Shown: positions 6,094 through 23,191 of the stretch, piece by piece | Layout of the letters: every line of letters starts with the position of its first letter | How positions within the stretch are numbered: position 1 is the stretch's first letter | Assembly (NCBI GenBank): GCA_025462735.1 | Contig: JAOAPC010000023.1 | Location: forward strand, 1-64,000 | DNA: 64,000 nucleotides | Direction: 5' to 3' | Origin: Acidobacteriaceae bacterium | GTDB lineage: Bacteria > Acidobacteriota > Terriglobia > Terriglobales > Acidobacteriaceae | The notes under the pieces: model-generated | Told to the model about the DNA's origin: nothing | Seen by the model: the letters and a program-made list of their open reading frames with translations, nothing else | The model's database searches: none | Translations under genes and position numbers: made by a program

Positions 6094-7677
6094 TCACAAG
6101 ACTCGTCTGGGGTCGATGCCGAGCTTTTTCATGCGTGAGATCAGCGTCGTGCGTTTGACATCCATCCGCGCGGCGGCTCCGTCGGGGCCTGCTATCCGCC
6201 CATTTGTGATTTTCAAGACGCGGACGATCTCGTCGCGTTCATTGGCCTCCCGCGTGCCAACCACTGGAGCGTGCCTGCCATTGTTGCTCAATGCAGCTAT
6301 TGGAGCTTGCAGCGCCGTGCCATGGGTAAGGATCACCGAACGCTCGATGAAGTTTTCCAGCTCACGAATATTGCCCGGCCAATGCCAACTCGATAGCTTT
6401 CTCAAGGCCGCTGCGGGAATCGATTCAATCTGCTTCTGCATGCGGCGGCCGTACTTTTGCGTGAAGTAGCGGACTAGAAGTGGAATGTCTTCTGGACGTT
6501 CCCGCAAAGGTGGGATGCGGATCGGAAATACGTTCAGGCGATAGTACAAGTCGCTGCGGAACTCCCGATTCTCCATCATTTTTTCCAAGTCGCGATTGGT
6601 CGCTGCTACCAGCCGCACATCGACCTTCTTGGTCCGGTTGCTGCCTAGCCTTTCAAACTCACGTTCCTGCAAAGCCCGCAAGAGCTTTGGCTGGATCTCA
6701 ATGGGAATGTCACCGACTTCGTCCAGAAATAGTGTGCCTCCGTCGGCGAGTTCCAGCCGGCCCATCTTCTGGGCGATTGCGCCGGTGAAGGCGCCTCGTT
6801 CATGCCCGAAAAGCTCGCTCTCCAGCAACCCGGTCGGAATGGCGGCACAGTTAAGCTTTACAAAGGTCCGCTCCTTGCGCCGGCTACGTTCATGGATGGC
6901 GCGCGCAATCAATTCCTTTCCAGTTCCGGTCTCGCCGAGAAGCAACACCGTCGAGTCGCTGAAAGCCACGGTCTCCACGAGATTCAAAACATGGCGGAGA
7001 GCTGAACTCTGACCTACAATTCCTTCAAAGTCCATCTCGCCACGGATTTCGTCTTCCAAATACAGCTTCTCCTGTGCGAGCTTGTCTTTTAATTCGGCGA
7101 TCTCGCGATAGGCCAAGCCGTTCTCGATGGCGATTGCCACTTGCCCGGCCGCTTGCATCAGAAAATCCACGTCGTCCAGGTTAAATGAGTTGGCGACCCG
7201 GCTGGCGAGCGTCAGGACCCCGACCGTTCGCCCCCGGCTGATCAGGGGTAGAGCACACCCGGACTCGAGGGCTTCAGCACGAGCTTCGGGAGACTCCTCG
7301 GGATCCATCTCCTCGCTCATCGCGCCCAAAATGAGCGGTTTGCCGGACTTGAATACCCCACCAATTACGGAGTCCCCGATCGGTTGCAGCAAATCTTCGG
7401 TTATGAATCCTTTGCCCTCGGGGAAGTCCATTGCAAGTTGTCGCAAATGGACCTGTTCGACATCCGGCAGCCACACGCCAGCAGTGTCGCAGTGCATGAC
7501 TTCCCGAATACTTGCCGAGACCACGCGAAGCAGATCGCGACACTCCAAGTTCGAGACGAGTGTGTTCGTCAGGTCCAGGAGCAGCTTCAGTCGCGTGCTT
7601 TCGCTTTGTCGTTCCGGTCGTGGGCTCACCGCCGCCTGCGAGTTGAATACGTAGTCCGATATCAACGAAGAACTCAT
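6094..7677 (-). CDS. GAF-domain sigma-54-dependent transcriptional activator
   Basis: 527 aa enhancer-binding protein. A GAF sensor domain spans about residues 30-185. A linker helix to ~215 leads into the AAA+ domain with Walker A GETGTGKE (248-255), the sigma-54-contacting loop GAFTGA (295-300), Walker B GTLFLDEV and the arginine-finger region FRSDLYYRLNVFPI. A Fis-type helix-turn-helix lies near the C-terminus (GRIAGPDGAAARMDVKRTTL). All motifs needed for ATP-driven sigma-54 activation are intact. The layout matches FhlA/NorR-like activators, whose GAF domains sense small molecules; the signal here is unknown. A GAGG Shine-Dalgarno supports the start. Two sigma-54 target genes flank it, one on each side. 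Confidence 0.93.
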   Translation of the reverse strand: MSSSLISDYVFNSQAAVSPRPERQSESTRLKLLLDLTNTLVSNLECRDLLRVVSASIREVMHCDTAGVWLPDVEQVHLRQLAMDFPEGKGFITEDLLQPIGDSVIGGVFKSGKPLILGAMSEEMDPEESPEARAEALESGCALPLISRGRTVGVLTLASRVANSFNLDDVDFLMQAAGQVAIAIENGLAYREIAELKDKLAQEKLYLEDEIRGEMDFEGIVGQSSALRHVLNLVETVAFSDSTVLLLGETGTGKELIARAIHERSRRKERTFVKLNCAAIPTGLLESELFGHERGAFTGAIAQKMGRLELADGGTLFLDEVGDIPIEIQPKLLRALQEREFERLGSNRTKKVDVRLVAATNRDLEKMMENREFRSDLYYRLNVFPIRIPPLRERPEDIPLLVRYFTQKYGRRMQKQIESIPAAALRKLSSWHWPGNIRELENFIERSVILTHGTALQAPIAALSNNGRHAPVVGTREANERDEIVRVLKITNGRIAGPDGAAARMDVKRTTLISRMKKLGIDPRRVL

Positions 7678-9478: not shown

Positions 9479-9775
9479 ATGCTGGACAGCACTGTTGACT
9501 TGCTGGGCAATCTATTTTTCGCCGCGCTGACTTTATTCATCGGTTCTTGTGTCGTCGGCTCGATTGTTGCGGCCTTGTGGGCGGTAAGCAGTGGAAGTAC
9601 TCGGGCTTATAAGAAGGTGAACGAGGCCTTCGGTTTCGCAGGTCCGACTCGGATCACCGTACCCACGATATTAACCACAGAAGGCAAACGTTCGGAGGAA
9701 ATGTATGGCTGGAGAAGAGCGCAAGAACTGGAGAGAGTTGGCGAACGCCGCGTTGGAAGCAAAGGATCCCGATAA
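9479..9775 (+). CDS. small membrane protein, unknown
   Basis: 98 aa starting MLDSTVDLLGNLFFAALTLF, with one strong transmembrane helix (about residues 10-35, rich in Ala, Gly and Val) followed by a charged tail. A weak AAGGA lies about 10 bases upstream. Its last 70 bases overlap the following small gene in another frame, so the last ~25 residues could be noise and the real protein shorter. No family recognised. Confidence 0.45.
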   Translation: MLDSTVDLLGNLFFAALTLFIGSCVVGSIVAALWAVSSGSTRAYKKVNEAFGFAGPTRITVPTILTTEGKRSEEMYGWRRAQELERVGERRVGSKGSR

Positions 9776-9955: not shown

Positions 9956-11590
9956 TTATTTCATGAGTTCATCGGCATAGCGGACAGGAACCGCCAAGTT
10001 CGAGCCGCCAAAATCAGTAAGAGCCGCGAAGTTCACGCCGATGACCTTGCCATCGCGATTGAAGAGTGGTCCTCCCGAACCGCCGGAGGTTGTCGCTGCA
10101 TCGTAAACAATTTTGTCCATTAAGACATCGCCGATGTGTCCCTGGGTAGTCGTTGGGCGAATGAGGTGCTGCGCCGCCAACTGCGAAACAATCTGGGTTA
10201 CCTCGTGGGCATTTTCCACAACTTTTTGTGTAGTATCGCTTCCCGCACGCGCGAGAATGCCCTCGATCCCTGTCGGGTAGCCAATTAGGACCACCGGATC
10301 GCCGGACACACTGGCTTGACTTCGATCATCGAGCTGCAGTAGTACGGCGCGAGGCGGTGCTGGTGTCTGTAGCTTGAGAGTTGCCAAATCGGCGCGCGCC
10401 GAAATCCGGTCAACCTTAGCCGCGATCCCTTGCAAGGACCCGGGGAAATACGCTGTGTAAGATGCGGCGAACGCCGAAGCACCCCGATCGAGAAGCTGTT
10501 TTAATTCATCGCTACCCCACCAAGGCTCCGCGACGTGATGATTCGTAAGTAGGCGTCCATCGTGTGCAACGAGAAATCCCGTGCCAAAAACATCAATCTG
10601 CAGGGGCGGTCCAGTCCCCTCGGTTTCGAGCGACACCATCCCCTTGTCGTCCACCTGCGGCTTACCCGTGGCATCGGTGGAGATACGAAGCAATTGTCCG
10701 GAATCTTTGTCCCTAAACTCCACGACTACGTGCAACAAGCAGATACTCGGTCCGTAGGTGTGAACAATTGTTTCCGCAACTCGGCCCTCGTTCTCAAGCC
10801 GGCTCAGACGACTCTGCGTTGTTTGAAGTTGGGCCCTCAGGGATTCGACATCGGTATCGCCGCCTGCGGCTATTTTCTTGCGGATCTCTGCGGTTTGCGC
10901 CTTCAAAGACTCGCGAGTTCCCAACGTGTTGCTTGCGGTCAGAGATGCACGCGCCTGTTCTGCGCGGCGCAGCAGTTCTTCCTGCTGCAAAATTCCGCCG
11001 CTTAGCCGCGCGACGTCTGCTTTGAGTTGAAGCGTGTCTTTCCGGCTATAACGATTAGAAATGACGGTTGCGAGTGCAGCCAAAATCACTGCCGCGCTGA
11101 GGACAAAAATCGCCGGAATCAGCCAAACGCGCCGTTTGGCGTTCATGTCGCCACTCAGCGCTTCCACAGCGCTCTCTGCCAAGTGCTCTTTCTGGAGTGC
11201 GTCGTTCAGCTTTGCTTCCAGCTCTAGCTCTGGTTGTCTCTCACGAAATTGAGCCCTGATCCTCGCTGCGAATTCTAACGGTTCAAATGGAAAGGAGATA
11301 ACGTCGTCGGCGCCCAAGTCCAACCCGCGGGCACGTTCCAGGGCGCCATCATGAACGATCATTACAATCTTGAGAGTTCGCGGACCAGGACTTGCCTTAA
11401 TTTGGCTGATCAAACCACAGCAGCTGAGGTCGGATGGTGTTGCTTCTGTGATCAGTACCTCCGGGGAAAGAGCGAGAACTTCATCAACCGTCAGGCCGCG
11501 GTCTGTGATGATTTCATAGCCTTGACCAGATAAGGCATGGTTTACCTCCCGGGTGGACTCCGTACCGAGATCGATTAGCAGAATGCGCAT
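9956..11590 (-). CDS. pseudo-receiver / transmembrane / trypsin-like protease fusion
   Basis: 544 aa. Residues 1-115 have a response-regulator receiver fold (MRILLIDLG, then LGADDVISFPFEPLEFAARI), but the phosphoacceptor position reads VLITEATP, with no Asp. A single transmembrane helix follows (about 155-177), then a coiled coil (about 183-270). A trypsin-like domain has His352 (LLTNHHVAEP), Asp401 (RADLATLKL) and Ser505 (TTSGGSGGPLF). The topology predicts a cytoplasmic receiver-like domain and a periplasmic HtrA-like protease without PDZ domains. A role in envelope proteolysis is inferred. A -24/-12 promoter with activator-like sites lies about 240 bp upstream. Confidence 0.85.
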   Translation of the reverse strand: MRILLIDLGTESTREVNHALSGQGYEIITDRGLTVDEVLALSPEVLITEATPSDLSCCGLISQIKASPGPRTLKIVMIVHDGALERARGLDLGADDVISFPFEPLEFAARIRAQFRERQPELELEAKLNDALQKEHLAESAVEALSGDMNAKRRVWLIPAIFVLSAAVILAALATVISNRYSRKDTLQLKADVARLSGGILQQEELLRRAEQARASLTASNTLGTRESLKAQTAEIRKKIAAGGDTDVESLRAQLQTTQSRLSRLENEGRVAETIVHTYGPSICLLHVVVEFRDKDSGQLLRISTDATGKPQVDDKGMVSLETEGTGPPLQIDVFGTGFLVAHDGRLLTNHHVAEPWWGSDELKQLLDRGASAFAASYTAYFPGSLQGIAAKVDRISARADLATLKLQTPAPPRAVLLQLDDRSQASVSGDPVVLIGYPTGIEGILARAGSDTTQKVVENAHEVTQIVSQLAAQHLIRPTTTQGHIGDVLMDKIVYDAATTSGGSGGPLFNRDGKVIGVNFAALTDFGGSNLAVPVRYADELMK

Positions 11591-12317: not shown

Positions 12318-15300
12318 ATGACAACCTTCACACGCAAGTTCGTGGCGTTAGCCGTATTTTTCGGCATGCTCACGATACCGGCATTTGCGCAGGTACGAGT
12401 TTGGCAAAGGACACTCCTCCTCCCCGCATATGAGGAAGGCCTTCCAGACCCGAACCCGCCATTCGACCAACTGGCTACAACTCGCTTCAACTATCCGTAC
12501 ACGTTGCGCACGAACCTCACGGATCGACGATCCGACCACCAGTGGCGGGCCGTCTTCATTGAAAACGAGTATTTGAAATGCTCCATTCTGCCGGATCTCG
12601 GCGGTCATCTTTACACGTGCATCGACAAGATCAACGGCCGTTCGATGTTTTATGCCAACCCGTCGATCAAGAAAGCGGCTATCGGATATCGCGGAGCTTG
12701 GGCGGCGTTCGGGGTGGAGTACAACTTCCCAGTGTCGCACAATTGGATGTCGCTTTCTCCGATCGATTTTGCTTTCACCAAAAATGCAGACGGTAGCGCC
12801 TCGGTCACGGTGGGGAATGTAGACCGCGTATACGGGATGCAGTGGAGCGTAGAGATGGTGCTGCGTCCTAAGTCAACTGTGTTGGAGCAGCGCGTCACAC
12901 TCAACAACCGCAGCGATGTCCGCCACCGCTTCTACTGGTGGAGCAATGCAGGGGTCGAGGTCTGGGACGATTCACAGATTCAATATCCGATGCGCTTTAC
13001 GGCGAGTCACGGATTTACGGAAGTGCAACCGTGGCCGGTGGACTCCAGCGGGCGCGATTTGAGCATTGTTCGTAACCAGACATCTGGGCCGGTGTCCTTG
13101 TTCGTACACGAAAGCAGAGAACCCTACATGGGTGTGTGGAATCCACATACCAATTCGGGTGCAGTTCACTTCGCAAATTTTGACGAACTGCCGGCCAAGA
13201 AGGCATGGTCATGGGGTGCGGACGCCGACGGACTCGACTGGAGGAAAGCTCTTTCCGATAACAACAGCGCCTACGTGGAAGTGCAAGGCGGCCTCTTTCG
13301 CAATCAAGAAACCTACGCGTTTCTTCAGCCGCGACAGACCATTCACTTTTCTGAGTACTGGATGCCGGTGCGTGACATCGGTGGGATCACCCGCGCAAAT
13401 TTGGCCGGCGTTTTGGCTCTGAAAAGGCAAGGACGCGCCTTGGTCCTTGGTTTCAACGCGAACCAGCCGCTTACCGCTGCGACGATTTCGGTTTCGGATG
13501 GTAGTACCCAGGTTTGGAGCGGGCGCACCGATCTGGCTCCCGAACATACCTGGTCCCATGAAATACCGGTTCCTGACTCGGATCGGAAATATACGATCGT
13601 TGTTCGTGATCAATCCGGCAAAGTCTTAATGCAGCAAACCGAAGGCGAGTATGACTGGACGCCGGCTTCGGATGTCAAAATCGGGCCACAACCCTCATAT
13701 CGAGTTCCTCAGCCGACTACTCGCAGCGAAGACGATTGGATTCAACTCGGCGAAACGCAAGAACTCAACGGCAAGCTTCTGTTTGCGCTGCAGACTTATG
13801 CGGAGCTGCTGAAGAAAAATCCCGCCAGCTACGCAGCTCTGAAGCACGCGGGTAGGCTCTCAGCGACACTGTTGCATTACGAGGACGCGGTCACAATGCT
13901 CGAGCCGGTGCTGAGTCGCAATACGACCGATGCCGAGGCCGCATATTACCTGGGTATCTCGTATGACGGACTCGAACTTTCTAAAAAAGCACGCAATGCT
14001 TTCGAAATTGCGTATCGTACGCCGCAATGGCGGGCTGCGGCCGCGATGCGATTGGCCGAGCTTTCGTCGCGAGAGAAAAACTTGGAGCAGGCAAACTTTT
14101 ATCTGACGAATGCGATGCAGTCGGCCCCCGACGATGCTCGCGGGGCAGAGGAGTTGGTCGCAATCCATCACGCTTTAAGCGGAGAGCGGGATGCCGGCGG
14201 GGCGGCGCGGGACTCGCTGCTGCGGTTCCCACTGAGTGACTTTCTTAGGAATGAAGCCGGAACTGCTGATCCGCAGCATCTCGCAAATGACGTTAGCCGG
14301 ATTCTGAATATCGCAGCCGAATACCTGCGCTTAGGACTTTATCAGCCGGCACTGGATGTTCTCTCCCGTCCGTACCTTGATCCGGTTGCGGATGAGAGTG
14401 AGCCAGGCGCAACCTCGCCTGCTCGTAATCCAATGCTCGCTTACTATCGCGCGTACTGCCGGATGAGAACGGGTCAGTCGGGCACCGAGGACGATCATCT
14501 CGCTGCATCCCTACCTACGGACTACATTTTCCCGAGCGGCGCTCAGGATCTGATCGTGTTGCGAGCGGCAGTCAAGGCAAATGCCGCCGATGCCAATGCC
14601 CACTACCTCCTCGGCACCCTCTACTTCTCGCGCGGACTCACGGACGAAGGTCTTTCAGAGTGGGAGCAAGCGCGAAAGTTGAATCCCAAGATCCTTGTTC
14701 TCGATGCCAGCCTCGGACTAGCGCTGCTGCATGTGAAGCACGACCCCGAAGCCGCGCTCGAAGCCTTTCGCGAAGGCATTCACAGTGATCAGCGGAATGA
14801 GGTGGTCTATCTCGGAGCTGACCAGTCGCTCAGTATCCTAAGAAGGCCCGGCAAGGAGCGCGTAGAGGCACTCGAACTCTATCCCGACCTGGCACAAATG
14901 CCCACTCAACTTGTTTTTGAACTAGCTCTGAACCTGGCCGAATCAGGTGATTTCGACCGCGCTACCGCGCTCTTTCGCAATCGATTCTTCCCTCGCGAGG
15001 AAGGCGGAACAAATGTGCGGCAGGTATGGGTGGAACTCCAATTGCAGCGTGCTCTCGATCAGGCTAAGAATAAACATTGTGAAGAAGCGATCAGGATTGC
15101 AAATACCATGGGTTCTCCGGTTCAAGACATGGCCTTCACAAACGATGGCCTGCAGCCATTTCTTGATTCTGCCCGCACGAAATATTTGCTTGGGGAAATG
15201 TATTCGCAATGCGGAAGACCTGAAGAGGCTCGACAGAATTTCGCAAGTGCGGCAGCGAAGTCCAACGCAGGCGAAATTATTTGGGCGTGGTTTGCCGCCA

Positions 15301-15539
15301 GGCAGTTGCCCGCATTTGACCAGAGTCAGTGGACTGTCCGGCTCGAATCGGCGCTGGAACAAGAGACTGCGATGTCGGAAACCAGCGACCTCTCGGGTTT
15401 GTCGGCTTACAGCCGTGCAATGCTCTATCGTGCGCTCGGCCGCGAGCACGAGGCGGAGGAGGGCTTCCGCCAAGTTTTTCTATTACCTGACAACTTGCTC
15501 TCTTACCACCTAACCCGAGAAGCGTTGACTACACAATAA
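12318..15539 (+). CDS. secreted DUF5107 / TPR-repeat protein
   Basis: 1073 aa. Signal peptide at residues 1-25 (KFVALAVFFGMLTIPAFAQV). Residues ~35-350 form a DUF5107 domain related to galactose-mutarotase-like sandwiches: YLKCSILPDLGGHLYTCIDK, GVEYNFPVSHNW, FYWWSNAGVEVWDDSQIQYP. A short beta domain follows (~360-450), then tetratricopeptide-type helical repeats from ~480 to the end (for example YYLGISYDGLELSKKARNAF and HYLLGTLYFSRGLTDEGLSE). It probably binds carbohydrate in the periplasm or at the surface, with the repeats serving as a protein-binding scaffold; enzymatic activity is unproven. TAGG before ATG supports the start. It opens the saccharolytic island. Confidence 0.85.
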   Translation: MTTFTRKFVALAVFFGMLTIPAFAQVRVWQRTLLLPAYEEGLPDPNPPFDQLATTRFNYPYTLRTNLTDRRSDHQWRAVFIENEYLKCSILPDLGGHLYTCIDKINGRSMFYANPSIKKAAIGYRGAWAAFGVEYNFPVSHNWMSLSPIDFAFTKNADGSASVTVGNVDRVYGMQWSVEMVLRPKSTVLEQRVTLNNRSDVRHRFYWWSNAGVEVWDDSQIQYPMRFTASHGFTEVQPWPVDSSGRDLSIVRNQTSGPVSLFVHESREPYMGVWNPHTNSGAVHFANFDELPAKKAWSWGADADGLDWRKALSDNNSAYVEVQGGLFRNQETYAFLQPRQTIHFSEYWMPVRDIGGITRANLAGVLALKRQGRALVLGFNANQPLTAATISVSDGSTQVWSGRTDLAPEHTWSHEIPVPDSDRKYTIVVRDQSGKVLMQQTEGEYDWTPASDVKIGPQPSYRVPQPTTRSEDDWIQLGETQELNGKLLFALQTYAELLKKNPASYAALKHAGRLSATLLHYEDAVTMLEPVLSRNTTDAEAAYYLGISYDGLELSKKARNAFEIAYRTPQWRAAAAMRLAELSSREKNLEQANFYLTNAMQSAPDDARGAEELVAIHHALSGERDAGGAARDSLLRFPLSDFLRNEAGTADPQHLANDVSRILNIAAEYLRLGLYQPALDVLSRPYLDPVADESEPGATSPARNPMLAYYRAYCRMRTGQSGTEDDHLAASLPTDYIFPSGAQDLIVLRAAVKANAADANAHYLLGTLYFSRGLTDEGLSEWEQARKLNPKILVLDASLGLALLHVKHDPEAALEAFREGIHSDQRNEVVYLGADQSLSILRRPGKERVEALELYPDLAQMPTQLVFELALNLAESGDFDRATALFRNRFFPREEGGTNVRQVWVELQLQRALDQAKNKHCEEAIRIANTMGSPVQDMAFTNDGLQPFLDSARTKYLLGEMYSQCGRPEEARQNFASAAAKSNAGEIIWAWFAARQLPAFDQSQWTVRLESALEQETAMSETSDLSGLSAYSRAMLYRALGREHEAEEGFRQVFLLPDNLLSYHLTREALTTQ

Positions 15540-18176: not shown

Positions 18177-20348
18177 TTATTTTTTCGCTTCAAAAAAAAT
18201 CAGCTCGGAGCTTTGCGGATTCGGCAACGTGACCTTCAAACCAGTTGTGAGCAGTTCCCTACCGGTGACACTACGATCGTGCGAACTGTGATCATGGAAA
18301 TGCAGCTGGTATGCCGCAGTCGCAGCGAGTCCCTTCAGCTCAAAGTTGTGGGTTGATTCCGATTTTGCAGATCCGCGAAAAACATATACGACGCCGTGTG
18401 AGCTTTTCGGATCGAAGTACTCGATCGCGTCCCAACGAATTCCATCGGGGCGCAAAGAGATGTGATAGAGATCGGCATCGCGGATCAACGGCCGCAAGTC
18501 TTTTTTGTATAGCTGAAATTCATCTTTAGCGAGTGCATGTTGTTCTGAGGTCCAAGAGGTTGTATCCATCATGACTGCCAGCCAGCCCATCATTCCACTG
18601 CGCAACATATAGAGAAAATTCTCTGGCCGCGGCGCCGGCCACTTCTCAACGTAATTCTCGAGCATCGCGCTGGGTAGGACATGGCTCGCGTCGTAAAAAG
18701 CCCGCCGGTTCGAGAGTGGATCGTAGGTATCGGTGACTGAAAAATAGTCAGCGTGCGCAGCACTGCCAAAGTCCACCATGCGTCCGCCGTCATCGCAGAC
18801 TTCCAATAGAAGCCCGGGATGGTCCTTTCTCAATTTCGAATAAATATCGTAATAAGCACGAACTGCGTGATAGCTGACGTCGGTCGAATTTGAACTATCA
18901 ACAAAATAGGAGCCCCAGGCTTTGTAGATGCACTTGTTCCAGTTATCTGGTGGCGCGTGAGGATGGTCGGTTCGGTCGCAGCCTTGAGTGACCAGGTAGC
19001 CGTCATGTTCCAGCATGTCGAGGTGGTAGTCATCGACGATGCGCTCGACTTCGCGCTGGGCCCATTCCTTGGCTGCGGGTACGCCAAGATCAATGGTCTG
19101 ACCTTTGAAGTCCTCCGGTTTCCAATCGGGCGGAAGGTCGGTCACCATCCAGTCGCGTACTTTGGGATCGCGGGCATTCAAGGCTCCCGGTTCGGTGCCA
19201 AATGCAGCCTGCGTCCAGTCGACCCATAGACCAAACTTCATTCCGTGCTGATGAGCGTCGTCAGCAACAACCACGAGTCCATTGGGAAACTTGTTTGCAT
19301 TGGGGTACCAGTCTCCAACGCCGCGGAACCAGCCCGCGTCCAAATGGAACATCTCGAGGCCGAGCTCTGACGCGTCTCGGATCATGTCGCGCGCGATGGA
19401 TTCACTCACGTTCATTCCGCCCCCCCAACTGTTATTCACGAGCAGCGGATACTTAGGGTTGTCCCAAGTCAGCGGATTTCCAAGCACCGTGCGAACCCAG
19501 CGCCGAAGCACGTTGCCGGTTGCATCCGGTCCTCCCTTCGAGGCTCCCAGAAAAACAATCGGGGTATCGAAACTGTCGCCGGGTTCCAGACGAGTGCGAA
19601 ATGGCTCGGGGTCGGAGTTCAATCCAGCACTTCCTTTGAGTGATTCGGTTGATCGCTCGATGGCCAATTGTGTGCGCCCGCTAAATTCGATCCCGATGTA
19701 CCACCCGTCCTTCGAGTCCCCGCTTTTTTCGAGAAGAAACCACGGAATAATTTCACGAGGTTCGTCTGCTTTGGGATGCGCATACGTACTCGATGTTCCC
19801 CTCCATTTGTAGCCGCCGGGCACTGCCACCAGATGAGTACCCACCTCTGAGGGAGTGTTTGCCCCTTTTTCTATGTAGATCTGTTCCAGGCCGACATCCG
19901 GTTTAAGTGACCAATTGAATTGAATGCTGTCTTGAAGCGGAAGCCACAATTCGCGATCACTAAGATTCTCGATATGAATCTGGTGCTCCACAGGACCGAA
20001 AGCTGCTCGCGATTGCCACTCCCAGCTCAGCCGGAGCCTGGGCGATTCACTTTCATATACGAACGTAACTCGGTGGGCTTCGATGCGACTGGCGCCTTTG
20101 TTGAATTGCCAATTAACGGCAGTCTCCTGGCCATCTATTTCGACCGAGTTAATCAGTTGTTCCGCCAAACCGTTATGCCAAGCTGGACGCAGTGGGGAAG
20201 AAATTGTCAGGAGCTGTGGCGCCTTCGATCCCGCCTGCAGCTGGATTGTGGTATCGGCAGTCTGCAATGGCACGGTTGTCTGTGCCGCCAGCAGCTCGGC
20301 ACTGCACAATAGCCAAACAACGCAGCATGCAGCCAAAGGTCGAAGCAT
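18177..20348 (-). CDS. GH36-like alpha-galactosidase family protein, secreted
   Basis: About 723 aa from MLRPLAACCVVWLLCSAELL, a signal peptide; the frame is open 30 codons further upstream, but AGAGGA supports 20348. The N-terminal beta-supersandwich runs to ~300. The TIM barrel carries LEMFHLDAGWFRGVGDWYPN, GMKFGLWVDW, LDMLEHDGYL (candidate nucleophile Asp) and LLLEVCDDGGRMVDFG (candidate acid/base region). This is the clan GH-D pattern of alpha-galactosidases and alpha-N-acetylgalactosaminidases. A C-terminal beta domain follows. It is downstream of and in line with the GH3 gene (87-bp gap), so the two are probably co-transcribed. Confidence 0.82.
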   Translation of the reverse strand: MLRPLAACCVVWLLCSAELLAAQTTVPLQTADTTIQLQAGSKAPQLLTISSPLRPAWHNGLAEQLINSVEIDGQETAVNWQFNKGASRIEAHRVTFVYESESPRLRLSWEWQSRAAFGPVEHQIHIENLSDRELWLPLQDSIQFNWSLKPDVGLEQIYIEKGANTPSEVGTHLVAVPGGYKWRGTSSTYAHPKADEPREIIPWFLLEKSGDSKDGWYIGIEFSGRTQLAIERSTESLKGSAGLNSDPEPFRTRLEPGDSFDTPIVFLGASKGGPDATGNVLRRWVRTVLGNPLTWDNPKYPLLVNNSWGGGMNVSESIARDMIRDASELGLEMFHLDAGWFRGVGDWYPNANKFPNGLVVVADDAHQHGMKFGLWVDWTQAAFGTEPGALNARDPKVRDWMVTDLPPDWKPEDFKGQTIDLGVPAAKEWAQREVERIVDDYHLDMLEHDGYLVTQGCDRTDHPHAPPDNWNKCIYKAWGSYFVDSSNSTDVSYHAVRAYYDIYSKLRKDHPGLLLEVCDDGGRMVDFGSAAHADYFSVTDTYDPLSNRRAFYDASHVLPSAMLENYVEKWPAPRPENFLYMLRSGMMGWLAVMMDTTSWTSEQHALAKDEFQLYKKDLRPLIRDADLYHISLRPDGIRWDAIEYFDPKSSHGVVYVFRGSAKSESTHNFELKGLAATAAYQLHFHDHSSHDRSVTGRELLTTGLKVTLPNPQSSELIFFEAKK

Positions 20349-20434
20349 AATAATGGGGTCCTCTGTGTAAGTTGCCGCGGGGTATTTTTGCGGAATCCCG
20401 GCAAACGTTTTTTCCGCCAAATCAAAGAGTTCGT

Positions 20435-22933
20435 TCATGGCGTCAGCGTGTACTTACTCCGCAACTGGATGTTGTCCGAAGAACCGCCGACGAGAATCGT
20501 GAAGTCACCGGGCTCAGCACTCCAGGCTTTTTTCTTGACGTCGTAAAAGGAGAACGCTCTACGATCGAGCGTCAAAGTTACGCGTTTCGTCTCGCCCGGG
20601 CCCAGGTTTATTTTTGCGAATCCCTTCAACTCTTTAACAGGGCGCGGAACTGAGGCGTGAGAGTCGCCAATATACAATTCCGCGATTTCCGCTGCTGCAC
20701 GCTTACCCGTGTTCTTCACATCGAATGAGACGGAAACAGGCCCACGCAAGGTTCCCGTCTGCGGCGTCACCGAAAGATTGCTGTATGCGAATGTCGTGTA
20801 GCTCAGGCCGTATCCGAATGCAAATAACGGTTTGGTTTCCGAACGATCGAAGTGGCGGTAGCCGAGGAAAACGCCTTCCGAATACGAAACCCGATTTTCG
20901 CCTGTTTTTGGGTAGTAGCTATGAAACGTTGGATTATCTTCCCAGCGTCGCTCAAAAGATGCAGGCAGTTTGCCGGAAGGGCTGTAATCGCCAAAAAGGA
21001 TTTGAGCCAACGCTGTCCCGCCTTCCTGACCCGGATACCAAGCGTCTAGAACGACGGGAACATTGTCAATCCACCGAGTCATGTCCACGTTTCCGCCAGC
21101 GGTGAGCACGACGATGGTGTTCTTGTTGACAGCGCTGATCTGCTGGATGAGCTCGTCTTGTCCACCCGGAAGCTGAAACGTGCGGTCGGAACCTTCGCTT
21201 TCGGTTTTAGGATCGAAGCCAACACAGATGATGACAGCATCAGCTTTCGCGGCCAAAGGCTTGGTTTCGCGACCCATATACTCCTCGGCTCGAGTCACGC
21301 CGAAACCAACAATGGCGCTGCCTACGTCCTCAAAATATTCAAGCCTTATCTTGTATGCCTTGCCGGCTTCCAGATGTTTGGCGTAAGAATCCACGGTCTG
21401 TGAGTGCGGTAACCAGTCATCGATTCCGAGTACATCATCGACGTAGAGTCGAACTCCATCGTCCGCCGAGGTAAAGAACGTGTAGTCGCCGGCCGTCTTC
21501 GGCACAAAATAACCTGTCCAGCGAATCGAGAAATGATCGATAGGCTGGCCTTGGGAAAAGCTGCCCTCCCCGAAATCGAAGTGAACATGCTTGTCGGTGC
21601 GAGCCAGAGCTGGACTGCCCGTCAGATCCTGAGTGCTGAAATATTCGCCCTTGAGTCCGCTCTCGCCTCCGGGCGCAGTAACGAATTCGGAGTTCTCAAA
21701 AACTTCGTCCAGAGGAGGAGTATCAACCGCATATAAAACTTTCGCCTTTGTACCAAGACGATTGCTGATCCCTTCCAAATAGCTGACGGCGTTGAACGGC
21801 TTAGTTTCTGCGCTGCCGCCACCGCTGACCACGGCCGGGTATGCTTCTGGTCCAATAACAGCTATGGTTTTCGTTTTGTCGGAGTTCAGCGGAAGAAGAC
21901 TATTTGAATTTTTCAAAAGCACCATGCCGCTCCTAGCCTCCTCGAGAGCTACGTTCCTTCCTTCCTGACTCAAGGTTGGAATATCCCTATCTTCCTGCTG
22001 CTGGTCAAAGAAACCGAACTCGATCGCCTTTCGCAGAATTCGTCTTACTTTGTCATCCAGTGTCGCGGTTGTGACTCTGCCATCTTTCAGGGCTCGGAGC
22101 AGCGTGTCCCGATTCATAAAACTTGGAGAGGGCATTTCAAGATCGAGACCTCCGTTAAAGGCCGCAATTCCGTCATGCGTCGCGCCCCAATCTGACATGA
22201 GAATTCCATCGAATCCCCACTCCTTCTTCAAAATGTCATTATTGAGATGATTGTTCGCCGTCATGTAAGTGCCATTCACGAGGTTGTAGGCGTCCATAAC
22301 GGCCCCGACCTTTCCTTCTTTCACCGAGGCCTCAAATGCAGGCAGGTAGATTTCGCGCAACGTCCTTTCATCGATATCGGAGCTAAGAGTCATGCGTGCG
22401 AATTCCGAGTTGTTACCAGCAAAGTGCTTTGCCGTCGCTATGACGCGTTGTTCCTGAATGCCGTTGATCACCGAGACTGCCATTCTCGACGCCAGGAAGG
22501 GATCCTCACCGAAGTATTCAAAGTTGCGGCCATTCATCGGAGCGCGATAGATATTCATTCCAGGGCCAAGAATAAAATGGACTCCGCGGGCGCGTGCGTC
22601 TTTGCCCATGGAGGCTCCAACTCGGTGCGCAAGTTCGCGATCCCATGAGGCCGCAAGAGCAATTCCGGCGGGATATGCGGTGGTCAGGCCGTAATCGTGA
22701 ACACCCATGGGGCCGTCGGACATTTTAAGGGCGGGAATCCCAAGTCGCGGAATCGGACGCGTGTAAAAGTCATTGATGCCACCAATGATCTCGATCTTCT
22801 CGTCCTGCGTCATCTGATTAAGGATTGAATCAACACGTTTCTCTATGTCGGCCTTAGACAACGTGACTTGCGCAATCCCACATTGCGCAGCAAAGAGAAG
22901 GACGACCGCTACGGCTAAACGCCGCTTGTTCAT
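20435..22933 (-). CDS. GH3 beta-glycosidase with PA14 domain, secreted
   Basis: About 832 aa from MNKRRLAVAVVLLFAAQCGI (signal peptide); GGAG upstream supports this start over two in-frame ATGs further up. The GH3 N-terminal barrel carries KHFAGNNSEF and the nucleophile region GILMSDWGATHDG. The (alpha/beta)6 sandwich is interrupted by a PA14 domain (~400-550: GLKGEYFSTQDLTG, AGDYTFFTSADDGVRLYVDD). An FnIII-like C-terminal domain ends KYTLTP. PA14-containing GH3 enzymes are mostly beta-glucosidases that bind oligosaccharides; other beta-glycosides are possible. It is probably periplasmic and is the first gene of the unit with the GH36-like gene, divergent from GH2. Confidence 0.92.
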   Translation of the reverse strand: MNKRRLAVAVVLLFAAQCGIAQVTLSKADIEKRVDSILNQMTQDEKIEIIGGINDFYTRPIPRLGIPALKMSDGPMGVHDYGLTTAYPAGIALAASWDRELAHRVGASMGKDARARGVHFILGPGMNIYRAPMNGRNFEYFGEDPFLASRMAVSVINGIQEQRVIATAKHFAGNNSEFARMTLSSDIDERTLREIYLPAFEASVKEGKVGAVMDAYNLVNGTYMTANNHLNNDILKKEWGFDGILMSDWGATHDGIAAFNGGLDLEMPSPSFMNRDTLLRALKDGRVTTATLDDKVRRILRKAIEFGFFDQQQEDRDIPTLSQEGRNVALEEARSGMVLLKNSNSLLPLNSDKTKTIAVIGPEAYPAVVSGGGSAETKPFNAVSYLEGISNRLGTKAKVLYAVDTPPLDEVFENSEFVTAPGGESGLKGEYFSTQDLTGSPALARTDKHVHFDFGEGSFSQGQPIDHFSIRWTGYFVPKTAGDYTFFTSADDGVRLYVDDVLGIDDWLPHSQTVDSYAKHLEAGKAYKIRLEYFEDVGSAIVGFGVTRAEEYMGRETKPLAAKADAVIICVGFDPKTESEGSDRTFQLPGGQDELIQQISAVNKNTIVVLTAGGNVDMTRWIDNVPVVLDAWYPGQEGGTALAQILFGDYSPSGKLPASFERRWEDNPTFHSYYPKTGENRVSYSEGVFLGYRHFDRSETKPLFAFGYGLSYTTFAYSNLSVTPQTGTLRGPVSVSFDVKNTGKRAAAEIAELYIGDSHASVPRPVKELKGFAKINLGPGETKRVTLTLDRRAFSFYDVKKKAWSAEPGDFTILVGGSSDNIQLRSKYTLTP

Positions 22934-23191
22934 ATCAGATCGCTCCATAAAAAACCTAAAGAGTAATGACGTCCGTTCGGATGCTATCAGCCCAGGCAAG
23001 GGGAAGTGGTGCAAAAAGCTTGGTTAGGACATCATGTGATCCCAATTAACGTCCGGTCATCAAGGTCAATTTCGTGAAAGCCATTAGAGCAGCAATGATT
23101 TATTTCCGATATCTATCCGAAAGAAGTAGGTCGAGTTTGACACTGGAAACAGAGTGCTGGTTTACTGCATCGGGCAAATCCATATACCCGA

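Follow-up and report, generated by a model that had tools for sequence, protein, structure and literature searches.

The window analysed here, a stretch of 64,000 nucleotides from an Acidobacteriaceae bacterium, contains a gene in which a receiver-like signalling domain is joined to a trypsin-like protease, which raises the question of what a receiver does on a membrane-bound proteolytic enzyme. The gene occupies positions 9956-11590 of the minus strand, starts with ATG and, according to the ORF call and its translation, encodes a protein of 544 amino acids; its closest larger neighbours among the ORFs, 9479-9772 and 12318-15536, both lie on the plus strand. The domains follow in the order receiver, transmembrane helix, helical stalk and HtrA-like trypsin domain. 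This anatomy is confirmed far beyond chance and is that of a conserved family of Acidobacteriota, and the protein is best explained as a bitopic, membrane-anchored HtrA-like serine protease without a detected PDZ domain.

The N-terminal domain (residues 1-118, positions 11237-11590, minus strand) has a (beta-alpha)5 fold by sequence and model. Pfam Response_reg matches it weakly in the window protein, under the cut-off (E 0.19), and the NCBIfam PhoB profile matches the window protein at 5.5e-10, yet with 38.9 bits it lies below the whole-protein cut-off of 296.2. PhoB from the PDB matches the receiver in a single stretch (3.1e-8), and PleD (PDB) at 2.2e-10 summed over two stretches, the best single stretch giving 6e-4. 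Among the family members, Response_reg was detected in 27/36 at E 0.01 (best 1.9e-12), the window protein not being one of them. The AlphaFold model of residues 1-135 has a pLDDT of 87.8 and a pTM of 0.82 and matches PleD with Z 16.2 and rmsd 2.3 over 132 aligned residues; TadZ and CpaE2 are also found among its structural matches. A receiver profile built from the family also picks up ordinary receivers: at five own-genome loci, the best one is found at between 4e-19 and 8e-26. The PhoB and PleD matches, the presence of Response_reg in 27/36 members and the confident separate model settle the fold. The sequence-only reading of residues 1-120 as a receiver-like domain is thereby borne out by structure prediction.

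The receiver counts given below refer to the 36 relatives that are full-length and have a readable receiver, L066 being excluded for its frameshifted N-terminus. Glu49 of the window protein (positions 11444-11446, minus strand) aligns to Asp53 of PleD (9g85 numbering), which we take to be the phospho-acceptor. This site is represented by Gly in 22 relatives, Glu in 10, Asn in three and Arg in one, and Asp is found in 0/36, in agreement with the earlier claim that the domain has no phospho-acceptor Asp. No relative retains the second Asp of the metal pair, expected at position 8, or the switch Lys, expected at position 100 (0/36 each), and position 79 is Ser in 14/36. The pocket of the window protein retains D7, and its other residues are L8, E49, V79 and F100; a phosphorylatable response regulator has Asp at the acceptor site, an acidic pair, Thr/Ser and Lys, a set that neither the window protein nor the family retains in full. 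As a control, seven other receiver matches were taken from five loci of the own genome; six are readable, and all six have Asp at the acceptor site and at position 8. Judged by these residues, the family receiver has presumably lost the capacity for phosphorylation at the usual site, and the domain of the window protein can be classed, by its modelled fold and absent acceptor Asp, as a pseudo-receiver. L8 and E49 coincide with both sites mutated in D10A/D53E, a constitutively active form of PhoB (2jb9), position 8 being equated with PhoB D10 by extending the PhoB alignment. Phosphomimicry by Glu49 was rejected as a family-wide mechanism, the acceptor site being Gly in 22/36 relatives.

At least 90% conservation was found at 17 positions of residues 1-118, and 12 of them fall within residues 83-116, the α4-β5-α5 face (positions 11243-11344, minus strand). 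This clustering has P 1.3e-4 for residues 83-116 and 7e-4 for residues 80-118, with bounds chosen after the data had been seen. By the PhoB alignment, the pairs R91-E111, D101-R115 and E96-K117 of PhoB correspond to R86-E106, D96-R110 and D91-R112 of the window protein, opposite charges being retained in 36/36, 36/36 and 33/36 relatives, respectively; all three charged pairs of the OmpR/PhoB-type α4-β5-α5 receiver dimer are present. Charged pairs hold the dimers of OmpR/PhoB receivers, and two central ones are described as crucial for PhoB dimerization in the available part of PMC2586830; Arg91-Glu111' bridges the PhoB dimer and Arg117-Asp103' the BfmR dimer (PMC4888885, in excerpt). The BfmR pair was taken as PhoB R115-D101 by our own renumbering, and the ArcA pair E94/R115 (PMC2586830, in excerpt) was equated with PhoB E96-K117 on the basis of spacing alone. 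The position of a fourth contact, PhoB Arg122 at the end of α5, which touches the partner subunit in the dimer (PMC4888885, in excerpt), is occupied by Glu117 in the window protein and by Arg in 0/36 relatives (E in 15, N in eight, other residues in the rest), while Arg122 is kept in 3/5 ordinary receivers of the own genome. Since the three charged pairs also occur in these ordinary receivers (5/5, 5/5 and 4/5), the face represents a partial retention of the dimer surface and not an innovation. The family receiver has thus kept most of its pairing surface while losing its phospho-pocket.

A pair of cysteines, Cys57-Cys58 (positions 11417-11422, minus strand), adjoins the former phospho-site; each is present in 32/36 relatives, including the deep-branching rows L024 and L059, and both are absent from the six ordinary own-genome receivers that are readable there. 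The dN/dS ratio of the receiver is 0.06-0.25 in six readable pairs, values that are rough, as synonymous change reaches 1.2 per site; the pair L001-L038, reading out of register, was left out. On these ratios, the receiver is under purifying selection and hence maintained.

From the receiver, the long α5 helix (residues 104-146, positions 11153-11281, minus strand) extends towards the membrane in the model. The best 19-mer of the window protein, residues 155-173 (positions 11072-11128, minus strand; model helix 157-182), has a mean hydropathy of 2.62, and the corresponding segment is the best one in 37/37 relatives, at 1.96-2.96, while the highest segment elsewhere reaches 1.76. A strongly hydrophobic segment at this place in all 37 relatives agrees with the single membrane helix proposed at about residues 155-177. 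It is followed by a helical stalk, a putative coiled coil (residues 203-282, positions 10745-10984, minus strand), modelled as helices 203-219, 223-241 and 248-282. The modelled path from the receiver to the protease is mostly helical, and confidence is low at the membrane junction, where residues 147-156 and 178-185 fall under pLDDT 50. The flanks of the membrane segment carry a charge of +1 before and +2 after it in the window protein, and both sides are positive in most of the 37 relatives, so that the positive-inside rule, tried as a topology test, was uninformative. The most likely topology is N-in/C-out, with a cytoplasmic receiver and a catalytic domain facing the periplasm.

The C-terminal domain (residues 271-544, positions 9959-10780, minus strand) matches Pfam Trypsin_2 at 4.4e-19 and has the HtrA/Deg fold (best Foldseek match 1.2e-13; VIA matches to the HtrA fold, among those listed, with Z 21.6-23.1 and rmsd 1.9-5.1 over 164-200 residues). 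The catalytic residues are His352 (positions 10535-10537), Asp401 (10388-10390) and Ser505 in the motif GGSGGP (10076-10078), all on the minus strand, and this triad is invariant in 37/37 relatives; the window protein has an HtrA-fold chymotrypsin-like domain with a His-Asp-Ser triad. The 37 relatives were kept of 44 after removal of seven identical copies; L066 is included in the triad and membrane-segment counts, and the partial or broken genes L025, L055, L064, L065, L067, L068 and L070-L072 were left out. Pfam searches of 36 members (E 0.01) gave no PDZ match, and nothing follows the protease domain in the chain, so the description of a complete His-Asp-Ser protease without PDZ stands.

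The window protein resembles DegS and HtrA/Do in having an N-terminal membrane anchor, as DegS has, and an HtrA-fold trypsin domain with an intact triad; unlike them, it has no PDZ domain among its matches, and it carries a cytoplasmic part of 150 amino acids with the receiver, and a stalk. MarP (Rv3671c), a membrane-bound trypsin-like protease without PDZ, is a structural match (3k6y, Z 22.2, rmsd 4.8 over 187 residues); MarP has several transmembrane helices and, unlike the window protein, no receiver. The curated scores were missed for DegS (TIGR02038, 24.9 vs 422.95 bits), Do (TIGR02037, 49.5 vs 416.2 bits) and MarP (NF033740, 27.4 vs 250). Accordingly, by these scores and the lack of a PDZ match, the window protein is not a member of DegS, Do or MarP.

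Of 298 genomes in the own order, 18 contain receiver-type genes, in one case split over two frames; such genes also occur on contigs labelled Acidoferrales, Acidiferrum and gp2. One genome contains two receiver-type copies (L009, G112:C1:143639-145150), 78% and 43% identical to that of the window. The family profile matches 59/396 genomes of the phylum at E <=1e-30, mostly over the protease part, a count that includes the own genome and short forms and in which genomes beyond the fetched loci are known by frame lengths only. In 194 genomes of Verrucomicrobiota, the family was found in the centre genome alone, a second contig of that label, L039, lying outside the search; with one genome of 194, L070 probably represents a contig binned in error or else a rare transfer. 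The genes L067, L070 and L071 are broken near the stalk at differing places, and further breaks occur in L064 and L068; a programmed frameshift was rejected on these grounds, assembly error or pseudogenes being likelier than recoding.

Besides the own locus, 29 loci of the phylum were analysed; an FHA-like N-terminus is present in 27 of them, and two, L076 and L081, have a short N-terminus without an FHA region and do not enter the FHA count, while for L077 and L092, whose start codon is uncertain, the whole open frame was used. Pfam matches in the 29 members of the FHA-type set are Yop-YscD_cpl in 15 and FHA in eight, figures that may overlap, the rest being assigned by alignment. In FHA domains, the Arg after the conserved Gly of the core binds phosphothreonine; this Arg is found in 0/27, and in L090 the Gly itself is replaced. 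The family profile, of 549 positions, matches the FHA type from position 147 (L074) or 139 (L075) onward; the part comprising the membrane helix, stalk and protease is homologous to that of the window protein, whose receiver stands in place of the FHA-like cytosolic domain. Two unrelated phospho-signalling folds, both without phospho-chemistry, thus share one protease chassis. A third, short form consists of the membrane helix and protease only; it is widespread within the own order, and the own genome has a paralogous example, L002 (C14:34705-35328), which lacks any cytosolic domain and is 40% identical in the protease. A similar FHA-like/transmembrane/trypsin protein, with FHA-likeness judged by eye, is encoded on a Ruegeria plasmid (L123:3326-4918). 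This protein, WP_172978531.1, is annotated from 3779 with about 380 amino acids, which is too short; the open frame starts about 150 codons earlier, and the extended frame takes in a hydrophobic helix as well as the FHA-like stretch.

In trees of the protease domain, the 36 receiver rows group together as a single clade (SH-aLRT 96-97), and the minimum number of label changes is two; the HtrA outgroup L008 filled only 23% of the tree columns. A single clade of FHA rows was not rejected (p-AU 0.37), which keeps the tree from deciding in which direction FHA and receiver were exchanged. An origin of the receiver type from the FHA type would rest on breadth of distribution rather than on the tree.

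Ten ORFs neighbouring the gene in the window were scanned, among them genes for a GAF/sigma-54 activator, an outer-membrane barrel, DUF5107/TPR and DUF5916 proteins, GH36 and GH3; none of the ten points to a partner. The GAF and sigma-54 activator gene (6097-7677) lies towards the upstream side of the window from the protease gene, on the same strand, and has no receiver in its Pfam matches; adjacent genes for GH36-type (melibiase) and GH3/PA14 glycosidases occupy 18180-23014 on the minus strand. For the receiver type, no neighbour family was found in more than 6/34 loci, with flanks of at most 5 kb and many contigs shorter; for the FHA type, no neighbour family besides the protease was found in more than 4/20 regions, the ORF picker having missed the protease gene itself in 3/20 (L104, L106, L111). 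Neighbour genes of the relatives were clustered rather than annotated; the designations caspase-like, kinase and ABC transporter were given by eye. A gene named in this way as caspase-like lies near the FHA-type protease in 4/20 regions (L104, L105, L110, L115).

Receiver folds without a usable acceptor, acting or presumed to act via a surface or a ligand, are described in the available texts for FrzS, RitR, ShkA and ChxR; these sit on kinases, DNA-binding or motility proteins, whereas the receiver of the window sits on a protease. The words protease, peptidase and transmembrane do not occur in a 2025 review of pseudo-receivers, and in the accessible part of a 2015 survey of aspartate-less receivers, protease occurs as a laboratory reagent only. 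The FHA-type proteins are linked to SctD (MxiG) of type III secretion by the Yop-YscD_cpl match in 15/29 members of the set. The periplasmic part of SctD (MxiG) is not a protease. SctD is likewise bitopic, with a non-canonical cytoplasmic FHA domain for protein docking (PMC12358396, in excerpt). NP_811686.1 of Bacteroides (FHA-FHA-Tryp), with FHA N-terminal to trypsin, was reported in 2008 (PMC2605481, in excerpt); it differs in its two FHA domains and belongs to another phylum, and the terms receiver and response regulator have no occurrence in the main text of that paper. In open-access PMC, judged by titles and abstract openings, no paper was found for a receiver and trypsin in one chain, and none was found there for the combination of FHA, trypsin-like, Acidobacteria and membrane. 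What these searches did not turn up in print is a membrane-anchored HtrA-like protease and a pseudo-receiver in one chain, both parts being of known kinds.

With its switch parts lost, most of its pairing surface kept and its FHA-like counterpart disabled, the domain probably serves to hold or place the protease and not to sense phosphate. The account that we put first, tentatively and at a little below an even chance, is that the receiver serves as a phosphorylation-independent handle for self-association or docking, by which the periplasmic protease is assembled or placed. The receiver would pair constitutively via the α4-β5-α5 face, or would dock a partner on that face; the long α5, the membrane helix and the stalk may then bring protease domains together or fix the place of the protease in the inner membrane. 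The domain would be a phosphate-free assembly or positioning handle and not a switch, and the FHA-like domain might fulfil that role in other lineages. As a rule, HtrA domains are trimeric, an arrangement to which a simple receiver dimer is a poor fit. Precedents are FrzS, a pseudo-receiver that acts through its output face and controls polar localisation (PMC1974792, in excerpt), and MxiG, in which the non-canonical cytoplasmic FHA of a bitopic protein binds MxiK (PMC12358396, in excerpt). The proposal that the degenerate receiver is an anchor or control element fits these data, while the inside-out control of proteolysis that went with it is a possibility. In its stronger form, which we regard as doubtful, interchangeable phosphate-free handles, FHA-like in many Acidobacteriota and receivers in Terriglobia, would pass the cytoplasmic assembly state across the membrane and so govern or place proteolysis on the far side, making the enzyme a true inside-out protease.

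Somewhat less probable again is a switch in which the pseudo-receiver binds a cytoplasmic partner or a small molecule, for example c-di-GMP, and the rod of α5, membrane helix and stalk passes a change of conformation on to the periplasmic protease. The mostly helical path of the model would suit such transmission, and HtrA-type proteases, DegS for example, are switched allosterically. The pseudo-receiver of ShkA, which binds c-di-GMP and activates its kinase, is a further precedent (PMC7010744, in excerpt), but neither a ligand site nor a partner was identified, the neighbourhoods of relatives are not conserved, and the model has low confidence precisely at the membrane junction. That the receiver is purely a localisation tag, bound to a scaffold at the pole, septum or secretion site and leaving activity unaffected, is unlikely, since no partner is known and the exchange with an FHA-like domain would need explaining. 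Its structural matches TadZ and CpaE2 have a localisation role and point in this direction, as does the FrzS pseudo-receiver that governs polar localisation (PMC1974792, in excerpt). A redox switch, in which Cys57-Cys58 senses the thiol state and shifts the conformation of the receiver, is consistent with the retention of each cysteine in 32/36 relatives, including L024 and L059, and their absence from the ordinary receivers, and also with cysteine-containing aspartate-less receivers, some of which lie beside redox or iron genes (PMC4395418, in excerpt); we consider it improbable, each cysteine being missing in four of 36, and adjacent cysteines could be structural.

A reversed topology, with the receiver outside and the protease cytoplasmic, or with both at one face, would be compatible with the positive charges on both flanks of the membrane segment in most rows. 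It is quite improbable, as the window protein has no hydrophobic N-terminal segment, its protease is structurally closest to the HtrA/Deg enzymes, most of which belong to the envelope, and receivers are cytoplasmic. Least credible of all is that the receiver represents a decaying, functionless relic of a recent fusion: its active-site residues are gone and Pfam stays below threshold in the window protein, but purifying selection in 6/6 readable pairs, surface residues invariant across the family and the single clade of the 36 receiver rows on the protease tree argue against it.

The mechanisms by which bacterial pseudo-receivers are activated and inactivated are called a mystery in the accessible text of the 2025 review. 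A receiver that is dead but largely conserved in its pairing face, and that sits on an enzyme whose activity can be measured, represents a clean natural test case, and its comparison with the dead FHA-like domain at the same place in relatives could show why phosphate-free signalling folds are kept. The receiver and FHA-like modules could together reveal whether the state of the cytoplasm can control a protease of the cell envelope.
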